64,000 nt of DNA from Pseudomonas sp. BGI-2 (GTDB taxonomy: Bacteria > Pseudomonadota > Gammaproteobacteria > Pseudomonadales > Pseudomonadaceae), in contig NZ_SISB01000032.1 of the NCBI RefSeq assembly GCF_004310295.1, forward strand, positions 1 to 64,000. Reading direction: 5' to 3'. The position numbers were made by a program, and so were the translations under genes. Every line of letters begins with the position of its first letter. Positions within the stretch are counted from its first letter, which is position 1. Of this stretch, positions 22,716 to 37,886 are shown piece by piece. Below the pieces are notes generated by a model. That model was not told where the DNA came from, made no database searches, and saw only the letters and a list, made by a program, of their open reading frames with translations.

Positions 22716-23028
22716 AACGGGAAGCTCCTTGGGAAGGGTCTGTAAGGAACTGATCGGCAAATGACGGGCAAGTTCGGTTTTGCCCGCGAGATAACAGACG
22801 CGACCATTCCCCCTGTGGGAGCGAGCTTGCTCACGATAGCGGTGGTTCAGACACTTCAATGTTGAATGTACCGTCGCTTTCGCGAGCAAGCTCGCTCCCA
22901 CAGGGTTTTGTGGTGCTCTGTCGATTTTTGACCAGCACGCAAATATCAAATGCCCACTCCTCTATTTTTCCGCACAACCCAAACCCCGACACTGCGCTCC
23001 ATCAATCAAATCCACCGCAGTTGCAGTC
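22716..23028. other. Intergenic region before the MFS remnant
   Basis: About 313 bases holding the REPIN at 22814-22903 and the putative promoter side of the MscS-type gene. I see no further coding or regulatory structure. Confidence 0.55.
22814..22903. repeat. REPIN (tgtgggagc family)
   Basis: tgtgggagcgagcttgctca at 22814 and the inverted cgcgagcaagctcgctccca ending near 22903, separated by about 35 bases. Confidence 0.93.
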
Positions 23029-29494: not shown

Positions 29495-29798
29495 GCGTCC
29501 CCCTTCAATCTGCGTTTGATGAATGTAGTTGAAGGGGTGCAGAGATCAAGCCATTGAGGGCTGGATAGAAACGACTTTCGAATCAGGCAGTTGCTGAGAG
29601 GGTAATGGCACGAAGCCTGTTTTATTCTGCACGATGCCCCGCCCAGCTCCTGCATTTTGCACGATCCAAGCCTTGCACAGAGCCAATGTGGGAGCGGGCT
29701 TGCTCGCGAAAGCGGTGAGTCAGTCTGCATCAATGTCGACTGACACACCGCTTTCGCGAGCAAGCCCGCTCCCACATTTAACAGTGCGGTGATATGGA
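29495..29798. other. Intergenic region with REPIN
   Basis: About 304 bases that contain the REPIN at 29686-29776 and the upstream region of the DUF3182 gene. I see no small gene in it. Confidence 0.55.
29686..29776. repeat. REPIN (tgtgggagc family)
   Basis: tgtgggagcgggcttgctcg at 29688 and its inverted copy cgcgagcaagcccgctccca ending near 29776; the sequence between them includes a further short inverted repeat (gtcagtc...gactgac). Confidence 0.94.
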
Positions 29799-31517: not shown

Positions 31518-31546
31518 CGTGGGTCGGGAAAAGTAATACAAAAAAT

Positions 31547-31604
31547 CTCACGCGTGAGCTATTGAGAGTGGCAAAAATAGCCTGTAGTGTTTCCCACGCG
31601 TGAG
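31547..31604 (+). promoter_or_regulatory. Twin-palindrome operator around a putative promoter
   Basis: CTCACGCGTGAG, a perfect 12-base palindrome, lies at 31547-31558, and CCCACGCGTGAG (one mismatch) at 31593-31604, 46 bases apart. Between them TTGAGA (31562) and TAGTGT (31585) are spaced by 17 bases and could be a weak sigma-70 promoter. The layout suggests a repressor binding on both sides of the promoter of the downstream yjf-like operon. Confidence 0.65.
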
Positions 31605-31627
31605 TTTTTCACAACGAGGTCAGCCCC

Positions 31628-32317
31628 ATGAAAAGCAGCTCTCCATCGAGCCCTCCAACCGGGCCCGATACCGATTCAGCAAACCGCAAGGGAGAGCGCG
31701 CGAAACCGTCCGCGAAAAAGCCATCGAGCTTTTACATGAAGCAGATGCGCGCGGGCCTGGGTGCCGCCGGTTATGTGAAACACGAGACTTGGGTGCTTCC
31801 CGAAAACCGAAGCCTGCTCAAGCAGATGGAGAAACAGCTTCGCCAACCGATTCTGGCTGGCTCATTCATGTCGGAGAATTACATGAGCGCAGGTACTAAC
31901 TGGAACATCGATCGACTCTTCACCGCCCTTCAGGCACTGGACGAAGTGGTTTCGAACGACATCACGCTTTCTCTCGTTCAAGGCTCCGAGTCCAGCATCA
32001 AGCTGGAAATGAACGATTTCGGTGGCTTGCCGATTTACATCGCGGTGGTGGGTGAACAGATCATCGTCGATACCGTTCTGGTCGACGTCGAGTCCATCAA
32101 CGACGTACCGGCATTCAATGACGCCGTGCTGCGCAGCCGGGAAATGTTCCCGCTGTCCTCGATCGGTATCGAGTCCATGCCGAACGGGCAGATTGTTTAC
32201 AACATGTTCGGCGCCCTGAGCTCCGACTCCAGCCTGACGAACATCGTGACCGAGGCCAAAACCCTCGTCGACAACGTCCAGCGCGCCAGCGAAGCCTTCG
32301 AACGTTTCTTCAATTAA
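31628..32317 (+). CDS. YjfI-like DUF2170 protein with basic N-terminal extension
   Basis: A 229-residue protein. The C-terminal part (from about residue 88, NWNIDRLFTALQALDEVVSN, to the end) is the DUF2170 domain of E. coli YjfI, which is only about 130 residues. The first 30 residues are Ser/Pro/Lys rich and disordered-looking. Residues 35-75 (FYMKQMRAGLGAAGYVKHET, then WVLPENRSLLKQMEKQL) have the strand-helix look of ribbon-helix-helix DNA-binding domains. It is first in the operon, directly behind the twin palindromes, so an autoregulator role is a reasonable guess. Confidence 0.78.
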   Translation: MKSSSPSSPPTGPDTDSANRKGERAKPSAKKPSSFYMKQMRAGLGAAGYVKHETWVLPENRSLLKQMEKQLRQPILAGSFMSENYMSAGTNWNIDRLFTALQALDEVVSNDITLSLVQGSESSIKLEMNDFGGLPIYIAVVGEQIIVDTVLVDVESINDVPAFNDAVLRSREMFPLSSIGIESMPNGQIVYNMFGALSSDSSLTNIVTEAKTLVDNVQRASEAFERFFN

Positions 32318-32341
32318 TTATTCGGGAATAGGGAATATCCA

Positions 32342-33040
32342 ATGACTCAGTCCATCTGGAGCAAATTGTTCACCGCGCTGCGCGGCGGTGCCAATGAAGT
32401 CGGCGAATCGATCGTCGACCAACAGGCCCTGCGTATCCTCGACCAGGAAATTCGCGATGCTGACAGCGCCCTGGCCAACGCCAAGCGTGAGCTGGTCACC
32501 ATCATGGCCAAGCACAAACTGTCGGCCGACCGCGTCAGCGAGTACAACGCCAAGATCAAGGACCTGGAATCCAAGGCCCTGGCTGCGATCCAGGCCAACC
32601 GTGAAGACCTGGCCCTGGAAGTGGCCGAAGCCATATCGACCCTGACCAACGAACTGGACGTCGAGCAAAAGCAGGCCAACGAATTCGGCGGTTACGCTGA
32701 AAACATGCGCAAGGACATCACCAAGGCCGAAAACCGCATCAAAAGCCTGCGCCAGCAAGTGGACATGGCCAAGGCCCGCGAAAGCGTTCAGAAAGCCCAG
32801 GTCAGCGCTTCGATTGCCAGTGGCGGCGCCAACGGCAAGCTGGAAACCGCCGTCGGCACGCTGAACCGCTTGCAGGCCAAGCAGCAGCAACGCGCGGCTG
32901 AACTGGAAGCGCAGGACCAACTGGCCGATGCGTCGACCGGCACTGACCTGGAACGCAAACTGCGCGAAGCCGGCATCACGCCGAACGAAGGCAGCGCCAA
33001 TGCGATTCTGGAACGCCTGAAGAAAAAATCGGCTGAGTAA
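32342..33040 (+). CDS. PspA/IM30 family protein (YjfJ-like)
   Basis: A 232-residue PspA/Vipp1 homologue, an ESCRT-III-like membrane-remodelling protein. It is almost entirely helical: LRILDQEIRDADSALANAKR opens the PspA coiled coil, which continues through ISTLTNELDVEQKQANEFGG to about residue 205. The first 20 residues (TQSIWSKLFTALRGGANEVG) could form the amphipathic membrane helix. It lies 24 bases after the DUF2170 gene, the same pair as E. coli yjfI-yjfJ. There is no pspF, pspB or pspC nearby, so control differs from the classic Psp response. Confidence 0.9.
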   Translation: MTQSIWSKLFTALRGGANEVGESIVDQQALRILDQEIRDADSALANAKRELVTIMAKHKLSADRVSEYNAKIKDLESKALAAIQANREDLALEVAEAISTLTNELDVEQKQANEFGGYAENMRKDITKAENRIKSLRQQVDMAKARESVQKAQVSASIASGGANGKLETAVGTLNRLQAKQQQRAAELEAQDQLADASTGTDLERKLREAGITPNEGSANAILERLKKKSAE

Positions 33041-33066
33041 TCGACTCAGCCGCCGGACGCGTAACC

Positions 33067-33155
33067 TGTGGGAGCGGGCTTGCTCGCGAAGAGGGAGTAT
33101 CAGTCGACATCGATGTTGCCTGACACACCGCCTTCGCGAGCAAGCCCGCTCCCAC
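33067..33155. repeat. REPIN inside the yjf-like operon
   Basis: tgtgggagcgggcttgctcg at 33067 and its inverted copy cgcgagcaagcccgctccca near 33136-33155. It separates the yjfI-yjfJ pair from the rhomboid gene and may stabilise or attenuate the transcript there. Confidence 0.94.
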
Positions 33156-33200
33156 ATGGAATGTGCTCAACTGACGGACATTCAACTGTCGAGGTCAAGG

Positions 33201-33764
33201 ATGGATGCCCTGAAGGGTTTCAAGACAATCGCAGGCCTGGCCCTCTTCATGGTCGCGCTGCAACTGCTCAACGTTGCGACCGGCTACAGCCTTATGGCAT
33301 TCGGCCTGATCCCGAGAACCGTGCACGGTCTGCTCGGCATCATCACCTCGCCTTTTCTGCACGCTTCCTTTGCGCACCTGAGCGCGAACCTGGTGGCCTT
33401 TTTGATACTGGGCACCCTGGTCATTATCGAAGGGCTCAACCGCTTCCTTGCCGTCAGCGCGATCATTATTCTGCTGGGCGGCGCGCTGGTCTGGCTGTTC
33501 GGCTTTGCAGGCGTACACATCGGCGCCAGCGGCTGGGTATTCGGGCTCTGGGCGTACCTCTTGTCCCGTGCCTGGTTTCAAAGGAGCTGGGGCAACCTGA
33601 TAACGGCCGGCGTCGTGGCCCTGCTCTATGGCGGCCTGATATTTGGCTTTCTTCCTCGTCAGGGCGTTTCCTTCGAAGGTCATCTGTTTGGTGCGCTCGC
33701 CGGATTTATTGCAGCCAAGGTACTTTTCTCCGCGTCGCGCAGCAGGTTTAATGCCGCCCGGTAA
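33201..33764 (+). CDS. Rhomboid-family intramembrane serine protease
   Basis: A 187-residue six-helix membrane protein. The start at 33201 has GAGG six bases upstream. Catalytic features are intact: HASFAHLSAN (H54, H59, N63) in helix 2, GASGWVFGLWAY with the nucleophile S110 in helix 4, and EGHLFGALAG with H161 in helix 6. It should cleave single-pass membrane proteins within the bilayer. It is compact, with no extra domain. E. coli yjfIJKLMC has no such gene. A target within the operon, such as a membrane or lipoprotein partner, is possible but not shown. Confidence 0.88.
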   Translation: MDALKGFKTIAGLALFMVALQLLNVATGYSLMAFGLIPRTVHGLLGIITSPFLHASFAHLSANLVAFLILGTLVIIEGLNRFLAVSAIIILLGGALVWLFGFAGVHIGASGWVFGLWAYLLSRAWFQRSWGNLITAGVVALLYGGLIFGFLPRQGVSFEGHLFGALAGFIAAKVLFSASRSRFNAAR

Positions 33765-33834
33765 CCGCACTTAAGCGTTCAGAAGTCGGGGCGATTACTT
33801 CGTCGGAACGAGTACCCACGGAGTCAGGGACGAA

Positions 33835-34869
33835 ATGTCGATTTTCCTTTTATTGCGCATGTACGCCTCGTCCCTCTTCCACCGCTTCGGCTGGGCAGGC
33901 CTGGTCATTGCCTTGGGCGTACACCTGATCACGGCTTATCTGGGCCTGGTGTTTCTGGGCGAACAACACCTCACCGCCCCCGCCACGTTTACTTACTTCT
34001 ATCTCACCACCACACTCACCGTCGGCTATGGCGATCTCGCGCCGCAGACACCGGCGGGGCGAATTTTCGTGGCCACCTGGGTCATGCTCGGGGGCATTGC
34101 GCTGCTGACGGCAGCCATCGGCAAAACCACCAGCAGTGTCATCGATGCATGGAGAAAAGGCATGAAGGGCAAAGGCGATTTCACCGGCAAGGTCGGCCAT
34201 ACGGTTCTCATCGGCTGGGAAGGCGCGTCCAGCGAGCGGGTCATTGAATTGTTGCTTCAGGACGAAACCTCGAACGACAACCTGATCGTCATTTGCGATT
34301 GCACCCTTGAAGAAAACCCGATGCCGGGCAAAGCGACCTTTATCAAAGGTGAAAGCCTGTCCTCCGTGGCGTTGTTGCTGCGCGCCGGCGTTCCTGGTGC
34401 CGAACGCGTCCTGGTGCGAACCCATTCAGACGACCTGACCCTGGCCACCGTGCTGGCGGTCAATCAACTGAAACCTGTCGGGCATGTGGTCGCCCATTTC
34501 AATGACAGTGAAGTCGCTGCGCTCGCCAGCGCCTACGCGCCCAGCCTGGAATGCACCTCAAGCATGGCCATCGAGATGCTGGTGCGCGCCTCTCAGGATC
34601 CGGGCTCGTCAGTGGTCATCAATGAACTGCTGTGCGTGGGCCAAGGCGCCACTCAATACCTGATGAAACTGCCCGAGGCCTTCGAAGCCACGTTCGGCGA
34701 TCTGTACACTCGGATGAAAGAACACCACAACGCCACGCTCATCGGCTATCGCGCCAAAGGTGCCCAACAACCGTCGATCAACCCGCCCAGCGCTACGCGC
34801 GTTGAGGGCGGCGAACTCTTCTACATCGCCTCCACTCGCCTCAAGGAAATCTCCAATGGGATGGTTTAA
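33835..34869 (+). CDS. Two-helix K+ channel with RCK-like (TrkA-N) domain
   Basis: A 344-residue protein: an outer helix (LVIALGVHLITAYLGLVFLG), a pore helix and selectivity filter TLTVGYGDLAP (TVGYGD at residues 62-67), an inner helix (VMLGGIALLTAAIG), then a Rossmann-like RCK domain starting GHTVLIGWEGASSERVIELL. The usual GxGxxG is changed to GWEGAS, so the nucleotide preference is unclear. The C-terminal 100 residues may be a second regulatory lobe. It overlaps the DUF2491 gene by 14 bases, which ties the channel tightly to the operon. Absent from the E. coli yjf operon. Confidence 0.9.
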   Translation: MSIFLLLRMYASSLFHRFGWAGLVIALGVHLITAYLGLVFLGEQHLTAPATFTYFYLTTTLTVGYGDLAPQTPAGRIFVATWVMLGGIALLTAAIGKTTSSVIDAWRKGMKGKGDFTGKVGHTVLIGWEGASSERVIELLLQDETSNDNLIVICDCTLEENPMPGKATFIKGESLSSVALLLRAGVPGAERVLVRTHSDDLTLATVLAVNQLKPVGHVVAHFNDSEVAALASAYAPSLECTSSMAIEMLVRASQDPGSSVVINELLCVGQGATQYLMKLPEAFEATFGDLYTRMKEHHNATLIGYRAKGAQQPSINPPSATRVEGGELFYIASTRLKEISNGMV

Positions 34870-35533
34870 ACAGTTGATGGGGCTTGAGGCCCCGAACGCG
34901 ACGACAGAGTCGAAATGGACCGCCAACGAAACTCCGCCACCGGCCACTGGCCCATTGGGCCTGGGATTGGGCAAGGGCGTGATGTTCGACACCTCCCTGA
35001 GATTGTTGCTCGACGGCAACACCACGGTAACCATCCCGGGGTCCCAGCAGATCTGGAGCAACGGCACCGTCGATCTCGGGCAATCGACCTGGCTGTCGCG
35101 CTATTACATGAACGACGAAGATTACTGGTTGCAGGTGCACACCACCGGCGACATCGCCGGGCAGGTCGAGTCGGTGATCCTGTTCAACTACCTCAGTTAC
35201 ATCACCATCAGCAGTGAAGCGGAGCTGCGTCGGCTGGCCGGCCCGCAAAGCCTGATCGGGCTGCCGACCTACACCCATAACGGCGTCGAATACACCCGCG
35301 AATGGGGCACCGAAAATGGCCAGACAGAATTGGTGGCACTGAGCGAACAGCTGAAAAATCCGGAGGAGTCCTACAACATCGAGCACCGTTCGATGCTGTA
35401 CGCCCGTGAAACCGGCCTGACCGATCGCCGGGAGTTCCTGCTGTTTTCCGTCGAAGAAGACGCCGAAGGCACCATCAGCTTGAGCACGTCGCTGGGCATC
35501 TCGCTCTACACAACCGACCTGAATACGTTCTGA
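34856..35533 (+). CDS. DUF2491 family protein (YjfK-like)
   Basis: A 225-residue soluble protein. The start at 34856 gives MGWFKQLMGLEAP, the conserved YjfK-type opening. The core LGLGKGVMFDTSLRLLLDGN, DDEDYWLQVHTTGDIAGQVE and EYTREWGTENGQTELVALSE match the DUF2491 family. No signal peptide or membrane helix. Function unknown. Its start is inside the channel gene's last codons (translational coupling), and the DUF350 gene follows 16 bases on. Confidence 0.82.
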   Translation: MGWFKQLMGLEAPNATTESKWTANETPPPATGPLGLGLGKGVMFDTSLRLLLDGNTTVTIPGSQQIWSNGTVDLGQSTWLSRYYMNDEDYWLQVHTTGDIAGQVESVILFNYLSYITISSEAELRRLAGPQSLIGLPTYTHNGVEYTREWGTENGQTELVALSEQLKNPEESYNIEHRSMLYARETGLTDRREFLLFSVEEDAEGTISLSTSLGISLYTTDLNTF

Positions 35534-35549
35534 AAAAAGGAAGCAGTCC

Positions 35550-35978
35550 ATGCTAGAAGCACTCTCCATCTCTCTGAACAAAGCCGCCGTGTTCGGGTTT
35601 GTCGCGTACATCCTCGGCGCCGCGGTGCTGTTCGCGCTGTTCCAGTTCATCTACACCCGTATCACACCGCACAAGGAATTCGAACTGATCCGCTCGGGCA
35701 ACGTCGCCGCCGCAATCGCTCTGGGCGGCGCCCTCATCGGTTTCGCGATTCCGGCCAGCAATGTGATTGCCTACTCGATCAGCCTGCTCGACTTCGTCGT
35801 CTGGTCGCTGATCGCGGCAGTCGTGCAACTGCTGGCGTTCCTGGTGACCAGCCTGGTGTTGAAAGGCACTTCTGAACGGATCAAGAAAGGCGAAATCGCG
35901 GCGGGTGTCTATGTCGCGGCCGTGGCCATCAGCGTTGGCATGTTGAACGCCGCCTGCATGACCCCTACCCCGAACTGA
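35550..35978 (+). CDS. DUF350 membrane protein (YjfL-like)
   Basis: A 142-residue polytopic membrane protein with four predicted helices (AAVFGFVAYILGAAVLFALF, AAIALGGALIGFAIPASNVI, LIAAVVQLLAFLVTSLVL, and a C-terminal helix AGVYVAAVAISVGMLNAACM). The family's two-by-two helix repeat is visible, with the ALGGALIGFAI glycine-rich motif. DUF350 proteins often sit beside glutathionylspermidine-synthase-like genes, as here. Function unknown. Confidence 0.85.
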   Translation: MLEALSISLNKAAVFGFVAYILGAAVLFALFQFIYTRITPHKEFELIRSGNVAAAIALGGALIGFAIPASNVIAYSISLLDFVVWSLIAAVVQLLAFLVTSLVLKGTSERIKKGEIAAGVYVAAVAISVGMLNAACMTPTPN

Positions 35979-35996
35979 TTGCGCACGGAGCTCCCG

Positions 35997-36716
35997 ATGA
36001 AACGAAGCAAGTACGTTCAACTGTCGCTGGCAGCCTCGGTCGCCATGGCGATATCAGGCTGCGGGCCGACAGAAAAAACTTACCCGGTGCAGAAGAAATA
36101 CAACTTCCAGTCCGTTCAGCAATGCTCCGATGAAAAACTCCCGGTGGACGTCTGCTCGGACGCCTACATGACCGCCATGGCCGAGCATCGCCGCATTGCG
36201 CCGGTGTACGACAGCCAGGCCGATTGCGATGCCGACTTTGTCGCCGACTGGTGCCAGCAGGATTCCGCCGGCAGGTTCATCCCCAAGCTCGGTGGTTTCG
36301 AATTGACCGCCGATGGCCAGGTGACGCAATCCCAAGTGGACGCGGCCAAGGCGCAATTGCCGGCCTCGGAAGCGGCGAACAGTGGTGGCTCGGGCTTCTC
36401 CACCAGCAGCCTTTTGACCGGCCTGCTGATCGGCAACATGCTGAGCAGCAACCGCAACAGCTACTACTCCGAGCCGGTGTACCGCTATCGCGATGATCGC
36501 GGCAGCTATTCGAACTCGACACTCAGCCAGCGGATTTCCAAGGGCTCGACGTTTAACAAGTCCAATCAGGCGAGGTACGGCAGCAGCAACTACGCCGACT
36601 CGGTCCGTTCTTCTACCAGCAAGCCGGTTTCCGTTGCCTCGTCCACCTCCCGTGGCGGCTTTGGCAGCAAGGCCAGCGCACGCAGCGGCTGGGGCGGCGG
36701 CGGATCGAGCAGTTAA
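35997..36716 (+). CDS. DUF1190 lipoprotein (YjfM-like)
   Basis: A 239-residue lipoprotein. The start at 35997 with GGAG upstream gives MKRSKYVQLSLAASVAMAIS, then lipobox ISGC. The mature part has the DUF1190 cysteine-containing segment (QQCSDEKLPVDVCSDAYMTA, DCDADFVADWCQQDSAGRF), a short hydrophobic stretch (SSLLTGLLIGNMLS) and a long Ser/Gly/Arg-rich low-complexity tail ending GWGGGGSSS. The tail looks like YjfM/YgiB-type proteins. It is 18 bases after the DUF350 stop and 12 before the synthase gene. Confidence 0.85.
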   Translation: MKRSKYVQLSLAASVAMAISGCGPTEKTYPVQKKYNFQSVQQCSDEKLPVDVCSDAYMTAMAEHRRIAPVYDSQADCDADFVADWCQQDSAGRFIPKLGGFELTADGQVTQSQVDAAKAQLPASEAANSGGSGFSTSSLLTGLLIGNMLSSNRNSYYSEPVYRYRDDRGSYSNSTLSQRISKGSTFNKSNQARYGSSNYADSVRSSTSKPVSVASSTSRGGFGSKASARSGWGGGGSSS

Positions 36717-36728
36717 GGGGACCGGGGC

Positions 36729-37886
36729 ATGAAGAAAATCCAATGCGCAGAGCGTCCTGACTGGAAACAGACGGCCGAGGGTCTCGGCTTTCTGTTCCAT
36801 ACCATCGACAACGAACCCTACTGGGACGAGAGCGCGTATTACCAATTCACGCTCAAGCAAATCGAGAACGATCTCGAAGATCCGACCACCGAGATCCATG
36901 AGATGTGCATGGACCTGGTGGCCCGTGTGGTTCAGAGCGAGGAGCTGCTGGAGCGCCTGAGCATCCCCGCGCCATTCTTCGACATGGTTCGCACCTCATG
37001 GCTCGAAGGTCACCCGCACCTGTACGGGCGCATGGACTTCTCCTACAACGGCACCGGCCCCGCCAAGTTGCTGGAACTCAACTACGACACGCCGACCAGC
37101 CTGTATGAGGCCGCGGCATTTCAGTGGGGCTGGCTGGAGCAATGCATCGAACTCGGCTTGCTGCCCAAGCATGCCGACCAGTTCAACAGCATCGACACCA
37201 AACTGCATCAGGCCTTCGCTCAATTGCAGCTCAAGCAGCCCTTCTACTTCGCCTCGATGAAAGACTCTGTCGAAGACAAAGGCACCACTGATTACCTGCG
37301 GCTGGTGGCGGAAAAGGTCGGCATCGAATCACGCCACATCGATATCGAAGACATCGGCCTGACCAGTGACGGGCGTTTCGTGGACCTAGAGGATCGCTGG
37401 ATTCCTCACCTGTTCAAGCTGCACGCCTGGGAATTCATCTTCCACGAGCCCTTTGGTGCAGCGATTGCCCAGAGTGATACGCAGTTTTTCGAGCCAGCCT
37501 GGAAATCCATCATCTCCAACAAAGGCATCCTGCCGCTGTTGTGGGAGTTCAACAAAGGTCATCCAAACCTGCTCGCGGCCCACCTGGATACCGATCCGAA
37601 CAAAGCGGTGCCCAAGGGCTGGGTGCGCAAGCCATTCTTCTCGCGGGAAGGCGCCAACATCGAGCTGCAAACCGCCGAAGGTCTGATCGTGAAAGAGGAC
37701 GGCCCCTATACCGATGCGCCGTTTATCCTTCAGGAATTCGCGCCACTGCCGAAGTTTGGCGACAGCTATACGCTGATCGGTTCCTGGGTGATCGGCGATC
37801 AGGCGGCCGGTATCGGCGTGCGTGAGGACAACAGCTTGATCACCAAGGATTCGAGTCGGTTCTTGCCGCATCTGATACTCGACTGA
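36729..37886 (+). CDS. Glutathionylspermidine-synthase-like ATP-grasp ligase (YjfC-like)
   Basis: A 385-residue protein matching the C-terminal synthetase domain of glutathionylspermidine synthase: GRMDFSYNGTGPAKLLELNY, TPTSLYEAAAFQWGW, a central KPFFSREGANIEL ATP-grasp segment and ALPKFGDSYTLIGSWVIGDQ near the end. It lacks the amidase half of E. coli Gss, as do YjfC/YgiC. It may ligate a peptide to a polyamine or similar amine, or modify a partner in the operon; the substrate is unknown. Last gene of the yjf-like set. Confidence 0.88.
   Translation: MKKIQCAERPDWKQTAEGLGFLFHTIDNEPYWDESAYYQFTLKQIENDLEDPTTEIHEMCMDLVARVVQSEELLERLSIPAPFFDMVRTSWLEGHPHLYGRMDFSYNGTGPAKLLELNYDTPTSLYEAAAFQWGWLEQCIELGLLPKHADQFNSIDTKLHQAFAQLQLKQPFYFASMKDSVEDKGTTDYLRLVAEKVGIESRHIDIEDIGLTSDGRFVDLEDRWIPHLFKLHAWEFIFHEPFGAAIAQSDTQFFEPAWKSIISNKGILPLLWEFNKGHPNLLAAHLDTDPNKAVPKGWVRKPFFSREGANIELQTAEGLIVKEDGPYTDAPFILQEFAPLPKFGDSYTLIGSWVIGDQAAGIGVREDNSLITKDSSRFLPHLILD

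Follow-up and report, generated by a model that had tools for sequence, protein, structure and literature searches.

The window analyzed here, 64,000 nucleotides (nt) of Pseudomonas sp. BGI-2 (positions 1 to 64,000 of contig NZ_SISB01000032.1), contains an eight-gene, YjfJ-type PspA envelope-stress operon, and we consider it probable that this operon carries its own autorepressor, read through a contact between DUF2170 and PspA. The long form of the DUF2170 protein, encoded by the first gene, would be the repressor, with a MazE-like DNA-binding head joined to a CesT-like DUF2170 domain. A dimer of this protein would bind two palindromes flanking the operon promoter and turn the promoter off. 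The DUF2170 domain would touch PspA and couple the membrane state to repression by reporting how much of the PspA is free or membrane-bound, and envelope stress would lift the repression. An internal start would yield a headless DUF2170 protein without DNA binding, which could act as a PspA partner, a repressor antagonist, or both. When on, the operon would provide PspA for membrane repair together with accessory membrane proteins, a channel, a protease, and an acid-amine ligase. Any direction assigned to the control by PspA, with free PspA either strengthening or lifting repression, would be inferred, as the sequence cannot tell them apart. The operon class is known; the new part is the DUF2170 head, the paired operators, and the internal start as control elements. 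The paired palindromes, the head domain, and the internal start were also absent from an earlier note on this DNA. Passages of the literature on DUF2170 and yjfI contained no mention of such control; the subscription literature was mostly uncovered, and an earlier description is possible.

Palindrome 1, CTCACGCGTGAG, is located at 31547–31558, directly 5′ of the −35 block, and palindrome 2, CCCACGCGTGAG, which has one mismatch, is located at 31593–31604 and covers the likely start site. These proposed operators on the plus strand are 46 bp apart and enclose TTGAGA-17-TAGTGT, the proposed promoter at 31562–31590 (TTGAGA at 31562–31567, a spacer of 17 nt, and TAGTGT at 31585–31590), which was recognized by conservation. 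The general form of the site is TYACRYGTRA. A DUF2170 search was positive in 76 of 149 Pseudomonas genomes, and all 77 Pseudomonas loci beyond the window's own were fetched, consisting of 61 yjf-type loci and 16 bac-type loci, the latter having only the DUF2170-PspA pair out of this gene set (loci and genomes are referred to by L and G numbers, respectively). In the upstream alignment of 43 Pseudomonas loci with an H-type head, which is defined below by one residue, the conserved elements were the A-run before palindrome 1, both palindromes, ATTGA, and TGTAG. The spacing between palindromes was 44–46 bp in the 34 of these 43 loci with two exact sites, 22–23 bp in the 12 of 14 head-bearing bac loci with two exact sites, and 45, 46, or 52 bp in the remaining yjf loci where two exact sites were present (8/18).

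The paired pattern TCACRYGTGA-N10-45-CACRYGTGA, which omits TTAC variants, was found at 51 places in 50 of the 149 Pseudomonas genomes. Each of these places lay no more than 800 bp from a DUF2170 domain, and the backwards control of the pattern was found nowhere in the same genomes. In the genome of strain BGI-2, TCACGCGTGA occurred seven times and its backwards control three times. A regulon extending beyond the operon was considered and rejected, as the other six exact sites were all intragenic, inside mechanical open reading frames (ORFs) of at least 633 nt. From these comparisons, the paired palindromes look like a switch for one promoter. As a separate observation on the bac-type promoters (L002–L015, L227–L230, and L233), the transcript may be leaderless, since only approximately 6–8 nt separate the end of the proposed −10 from the ATG of the long DUF2170 form.

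The DUF2170 (YjfI/BacA-type) protein proposed as the autorepressor is encoded at 31628–32317 on the plus strand, and its long form of 229 amino acids matched PF09938 with 147.3 bits (cut-off, 27). The proposed DNA-binding head, a MazE-like relative of PF11455, corresponds to amino acids 31–74 (31718–31849). It consists of about 45 residues placed before DUF2170, with a consensus near Y-x-R-x-x-R-x-R-L-x-x-x-G-x-V-K-x-E-x-W-x-L-P-E, and was present in 75 of 78 Pseudomonas proteins and absent from E. coli YjfI and most relatives outside the genus. When the family head was compared with four PF11455 proteins by hhalign, P was 95.7% with a score of 43.1 over 39 columns, and the maximum score among 100 column shuffles was 17.7. 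The diverged member L095 scored 25.7 bits against a PF11455 cut-off of 22. Searched against solved structures, the head profile gave chance matches only, PF11455 had no match in the genome of strain BGI-2, where the control likewise matched nowhere, and no relative was found in the viral contigs searched. The profile comparison indicates that the head is distantly related to MazE-like PF11455, and we infer that it binds DNA.

Within the DUF2170 gene, an internal ribosome site (GGAG, 31873–31876) precedes an internal ATG (31883–31885; Met86), and the two together (31873–31885, plus strand) are proposed as a second start. Met86 is nearly invariant in a variable linker. In every one of the 75 Pseudomonas loci, which are related and thus not independent events, the linker Met had a 4-nt purine ribosome core before it, and in 33 of them a 5-nt core; of 1218 other internal ATGs and 228 gene starts, 7.7% and 77.6%, respectively, were preceded by the 4-nt core. 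It is likely, judging from these features, that the gene gives two products, the shorter of which would be a DUF2170-only protein of 144 amino acids. The alternative that the internal ATG is unused, with only the long protein made and Met86 kept for protein reasons, appears somewhat unlikely. A Glu-x-x-Met stretch may be conserved for folding, and the invariant GAG codon before Met86, tried as proof of the second start, was discarded because other Glu codons in the gene show a similar bias. However, the linker residues differ by lineage (EKEGG-M versus KLEEF-M) and between the bac and yjf types, while the purine box, 5–17 nt before the ATG in both types, and the ATG itself persist. The distant loci L087, L090, L091–L095, and L123 also have an ATG before DUF2170, although the quality of their purine boxes varies, and headless family members, including E. 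coli YjfI, begin near the Met86 position. In L227, which carries the head and two sites and shows 99.3% identity to the crystallized BacA chain in its DUF2170 part, the ORF encodes 206 residues including the head, and the crystallized chain begins within one residue of its internal Met (residue 60). PA3732 is called a 16-kDa protein in the accessible text of PMC2587700 (Mace 2008), which also speaks for use of the internal start.

Co-occurrence of the head and the upstream site was counted in 153 loci, comprising the window locus, loci from inside and outside the genus, loci from other Pseudomonadaceae genera, and two plasmids. Eighty named close relatives, all of which have both head and site, were excluded from this count. 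Of the 100 loci with the head, 94 had the site, as did one of 47 loci without it and one of six loci with a diverged head; in shuffled upstream regions, it appeared in 0.66%. The identity of one head residue also followed the center of the site. This was examined at 104 loci, of which 100 have the head; for 95 of these 100, a site was located within 350 bases. With K or R at the bracketed position of the motif G-x-V-K-[x]-E, 86 of 86 sites were centered on AT, and with H at this position (H-type heads), 77 of 81 sites were not AT-centered, being mostly GC-centered, and no locus violated the rule. Genome G071 holds both head types (L015 and L048), each with its own matching site.

Several observations weigh against the autorepressor interpretation. 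Within the window, three 12-mer palindromes with up to two mismatches were found versus 4.5 expected, which is not above chance, so the case for the operators rests on the comparison across genomes. A consensus promoter scan of the window did not list the proposed promoter, which for this reason relies solely on conservation. Amino acids 1–91 of the window's protein matched no Pfam family, and AlphaFold with a 36-sequence alignment of close relatives gave a mean pLDDT of 53.8, with the head weaker (block means, 30–54), too low for a fold to be shown in that part. Six loci, L017, L090, L231, L232, L234, and L238, have the head but no exact site in the counted region. At L017 there is one farther 5′, beyond a stretch rich in repeats; at the remaining five, none was found within 350 bases. 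Among the six diverged heads, only that of L094 had an exact site. L020, a bac-type gene pair, keeps two sites with a broken head. An intact H-type paralogue, L077, is present in the same genome (G073), and the L020 sites are GC-centered like those of L077, with those of its bac-type relatives being AT-centered; the bac-type pair has possibly been taken over by the yjf paralogue. The co-occurrence is, in addition, confounded by descent. In the DUF2170-domain tree, independent head/site pairs numbered three on supported branches and seven on all branches, which agreed or were silent, were never opposed, and did not reach significance. Because this tree-based test is underpowered, the Fisher test of the head/site association (p = 2e-30), affected by shared descent, is given as a descriptive value. 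The split between H and K heads may go back to one or a few changes, and since a single change may lie behind the H heads, the matching of residue and site is a correlation.

These observations bear on the alternative that an unlinked transcription factor binds the palindromes and that the DUF2170 head has another role, for example in holding PspA or RNA. The five loci with a head and no nearby site fit this explanation, as does the fact that many regulator families bind palindromes. Nevertheless, it is quite unlikely, given that the scanned pair is confined to this promoter in 149 genomes, that the center of the site tracks one head residue, and that the two types at L015 and L048 in G071 each keep their own site. 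Moreover, loci without the head have no site, L020 excepted, and two plasmid-borne copies carry the head and matching site together. These copies belong to yjf operons on two Pseudomonas megaplasmids, pQBR103 (L225) and pPma4326F (L226); the pQBR103 operon contains the rhomboid gene, and SPFH and ATPase genes come next in the plasmid gene table, which is incomplete.

A second alternative places the operon in a sigma-54 (RpoN) Psp regulon under the same kind of control as E. coli pspA; DUF2170 would then act by protein contact only. Also weighing against autorepression, putative RpoN sites 5′ of bacA and a figure legend labeling the bac operon as RpoN-regulated are found in the accessible parts of PMC2587700 (Mace 2008) and PMC10948618 (Wallart 2024), and the only fold seen in the BacA crystal is a chaperone-like one. 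The conserved blocks upstream of the operon are, however, the palindromes, the A-run, ATTGA, and TGTAG at a sigma-70-like spacing, and the published RpoN site is, in the text available, a sequence prediction. PspB and PspC had no match in the genome of strain BGI-2, with both detected in the E. coli control. From the upstream alignment and the searches for PspB and PspC, we regard RpoN control of this kind as very unlikely.

If autorepression is accepted, one gene might supply both arms of the switch. The short product would pair with both the long form and PspA and would set the threshold, the switch would travel with its operator, megaplasmids included, and one head residue would change the DNA specificity. 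We put this extension forward tentatively, as possible though not favored.

The remaining genes of the operon follow the DUF2170 gene on the plus strand. They encode a PspA/IM30 family protein of the YjfJ/BacB type (32342–33040; Pfam PspA_IM30 above cut-off), a rhomboid protease of 187 amino acids (33201–33764; PF01694, 78.8 bits), a K+ channel with two transmembrane segments, the TVGYGD motif, and an MthK-like, RCK-like C-terminal part (33835–34869; PF07885 (Ion_trans_2), 42.5 bits), DUF2491 (YjfK; 34856–35533), the DUF350 membrane protein YjfL (35550–35978), the DUF1190 putative lipoprotein YjfM (35997–36716), and an ATP-grasp acid-amine ligase of the YjfC type (36729–37886; PF03738 (GSP_synth), 472.5 bits), with DUF2491, DUF350, and DUF1190 also above the Pfam cut-offs. 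All eight families thus exceeded the cut-offs in the order given by the earlier note, and six of the genes parallel E. coli yjfIJKLMC in order, as it had stated, according to the K-12 gene order and family profiles. The gaps between successive genes are 24, 160, 70, −14, 16, 18, and 12 nt. The rhomboid ORF opens at 33156; the alternative start at 33201 has a GAGG box and is probably the true one, because 33156 sits on the edge of a REPIN, and the 160-base gap described earlier after pspA agrees with this start. The REPIN itself, between the pspA and rhomboid genes at 33067–33156 (strand unassigned), was found to be real, with two 45-nt arms that are 87% complementary.

A second REPIN at 29688–29775 has 23-nt ends identical to those of the REPIN at 33067–33156, and a third related REPIN pair is present at 22815–22901 of the window. 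A 9-pair inverted repeat (33030–33052), listed as a minus-strand terminator-like site, spans the pspA stop codon; this repeat and the REPIN that follows could together reduce expression of the downstream genes. About 157 nt 3′ of the operon is a gene for an OsmC/YcaO fusion protein (TIGR03549; 38044–40248), which was downstream in only some loci, as far as the length of the fetched stretches allowed.

Distribution of the operon was compared among the Pseudomonas loci, the window's own excluded, and outside the genus. Sixty of the 61 yjf-type loci reach DUF2491, the exception being L053, which stops at a contig end. A phylum-wide DUF2170 search was positive in 50 of 398 genomes, and the set from outside the genus consisted of 28 loci with DUF2491, including that of E. 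coli and four from a class-wide DUF2491 search. The stretches from outside the genus were mostly approximately 11–20 kb and some ended at contigs, so absences there are less certain than presences. All six yjf genes were together in 60 of 60 Pseudomonas loci, and the arrangement is therefore not due to chance, which bears out the description of the genes as one conserved module. The earlier note had named a lack of co-conservation of the rhomboid and channel genes with the yjf genes as evidence that would count against it; both genes were present in 18 of the 60 loci, the rhomboid gene only in 12, the channel gene only in four, and neither in 26, giving a rhomboid gene in 30 of the 60. Outside the genus, the channel gene was present in 21 of 28 loci, often between the PspA and DUF2491 genes, and a rhomboid gene in five of 28, placed after the ligase gene. 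These counts do not refute the module; from them, the rhomboid and the channel are optional parts of it, the channel being a widespread one and the rhomboid having entered the operon at two different places. Divergent DUF2170 and DUF2491 arms were seen in 11 of these 28 loci from outside the genus; the distant loci with the operon split into two such arms are L089–L095, L097, L098, L115, and L123.

The earlier note had further proposed a module that senses stress of the membrane or of ions, with gating of K+ and synthesis of a polyamine conjugate. The individual assignments on which it drew held for PspA, the channel, the ligase, and the yjf proteins. The channel matched MthK with E = 2.5e-14 and has an RCK-like part, in which the TrkA_N match was under the Pfam cut-off. 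The ligase matched the solved YjfC structure 7uk6 with E = 1.3e-126 over amino acids 9–383, and E. coli YjfC is reported as a peptide-spermidine ligase in the title of Pederick 2023, as cited in the accessible part of PMC12568646. These similarities suit the proposal, but 38 of the 60 Pseudomonas operons lack the channel, as does the E. coli operon, which makes K+ gating improbable as the core function; we judge the proposal as a whole unlikely. The PspA family protein of the window was the single PspA_IM30 match in its genome. In the rhomboid protein, the Ser125 (GASG) and His176 dyad (numbered in the 202-amino-acid ORF) was conserved in 95% or more of the 30 sequences compared. Identification of this protein as a rhombosortase (TIGR03902, 25.8 bits; cut-off, 84) or as GlpG (score under the cut-off) was rejected.

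Many PspA systems are without PspF, and to our knowledge the control of such systems is largely open; Ravi 2024 emphasizes how varied the contexts of PspA are. If the proposal made here is true, the YjfJ/BacB branch is controlled by a local repressor that has a defined operator and contains a domain facing PspA, and this could explain the higher levels of Bac proteins after loss of BacA. The solved BacA structure would then omit the part most likely to touch DNA. An internal start would also reconcile the 16 kDa in print, as far as the source is accessible, with the 206 positions of NF050185 and the 206 residues of the L227 ORF.

The accessible text of PMC11237479 (Ravi 2024) describes an operon class composed of DUF2170-PspA, a K+ channel, DUF2491, DUF350, DUF1190, and a GspS-like ligase. 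The window carries all seven families of this 'third group' (CesT/Tir-PspA dyad) in one run. The previous claim that no published role ties all eight genes together was therefore overstated, because seven of the eight already form one published class; the word rhomboid is found nowhere in the main text of that paper. The section describing the class gave no operator, DNA-binding head, or internal start in DUF2170, and an RHH transcription factor gene is mentioned there for the second group only.

The bac operon of P. aeruginosa (BacA-F), in which BacA is the DUF2170 protein (PMC10948618, Wallart 2024, as far as accessible), also has DUF2170 followed by PspA, with BacA acting negatively on the operon. 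According to the same source, a bacA mutant accumulates the other Bac proteins, which fits repression by the DUF2170 protein, the gene joins of bacA-F were shown in PA14 by reverse transcription-PCR, and the BacA crystal has a CesT-like, chaperone-like fold. The terms DNA-binding, palindrome, and ribbon are absent from this paper. The accessible text of PMC2587700 reports that osmotic shock raises BacB, and that of PMC13092808 a contact between BacA and BacB (PspA) predicted at 0.981. The DUF2170 protein of the window matched the BacA structure 8q8o with E = 4.9e-30 over amino acids 91–227, and it matched the NCBIfam BacA model NF050185 from amino acid 30 with 209.6 bits, under the cut-off of 300. 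Unlike the window, the bac-type loci fetched have no downstream yjf genes, and their palindromes are 22–23 bp apart, versus 44–46 bp in the H-type yjf loci. The BacA crystal chain (8q8o; 146 amino acids) begins at DUF2170 and is without the head.

E. coli yjfIJKLMC has the six genes in the same order as in the window, without rhomboid or channel in the run, and YjfI has neither the head nor such a site; yjfIJKL was proposed as a heat-tolerance operon in the accessible part of PMC12492005. The canonical Psp system (PspF-PspABC) is likewise an envelope response centered on PspA. It has PspB and PspC, neither of which was found in the genome of strain BGI-2, and its PspA holds an activator (PMC2587700, in the text available), whereas a fusion of a repressor with a predicted PspA-binding domain is proposed here. 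The head is related by profile comparison to the MazE-like antitoxins of PF11455; unlike in these antitoxins, it is fused to a chaperone-like domain and encoded by the first gene of a PspA operon.

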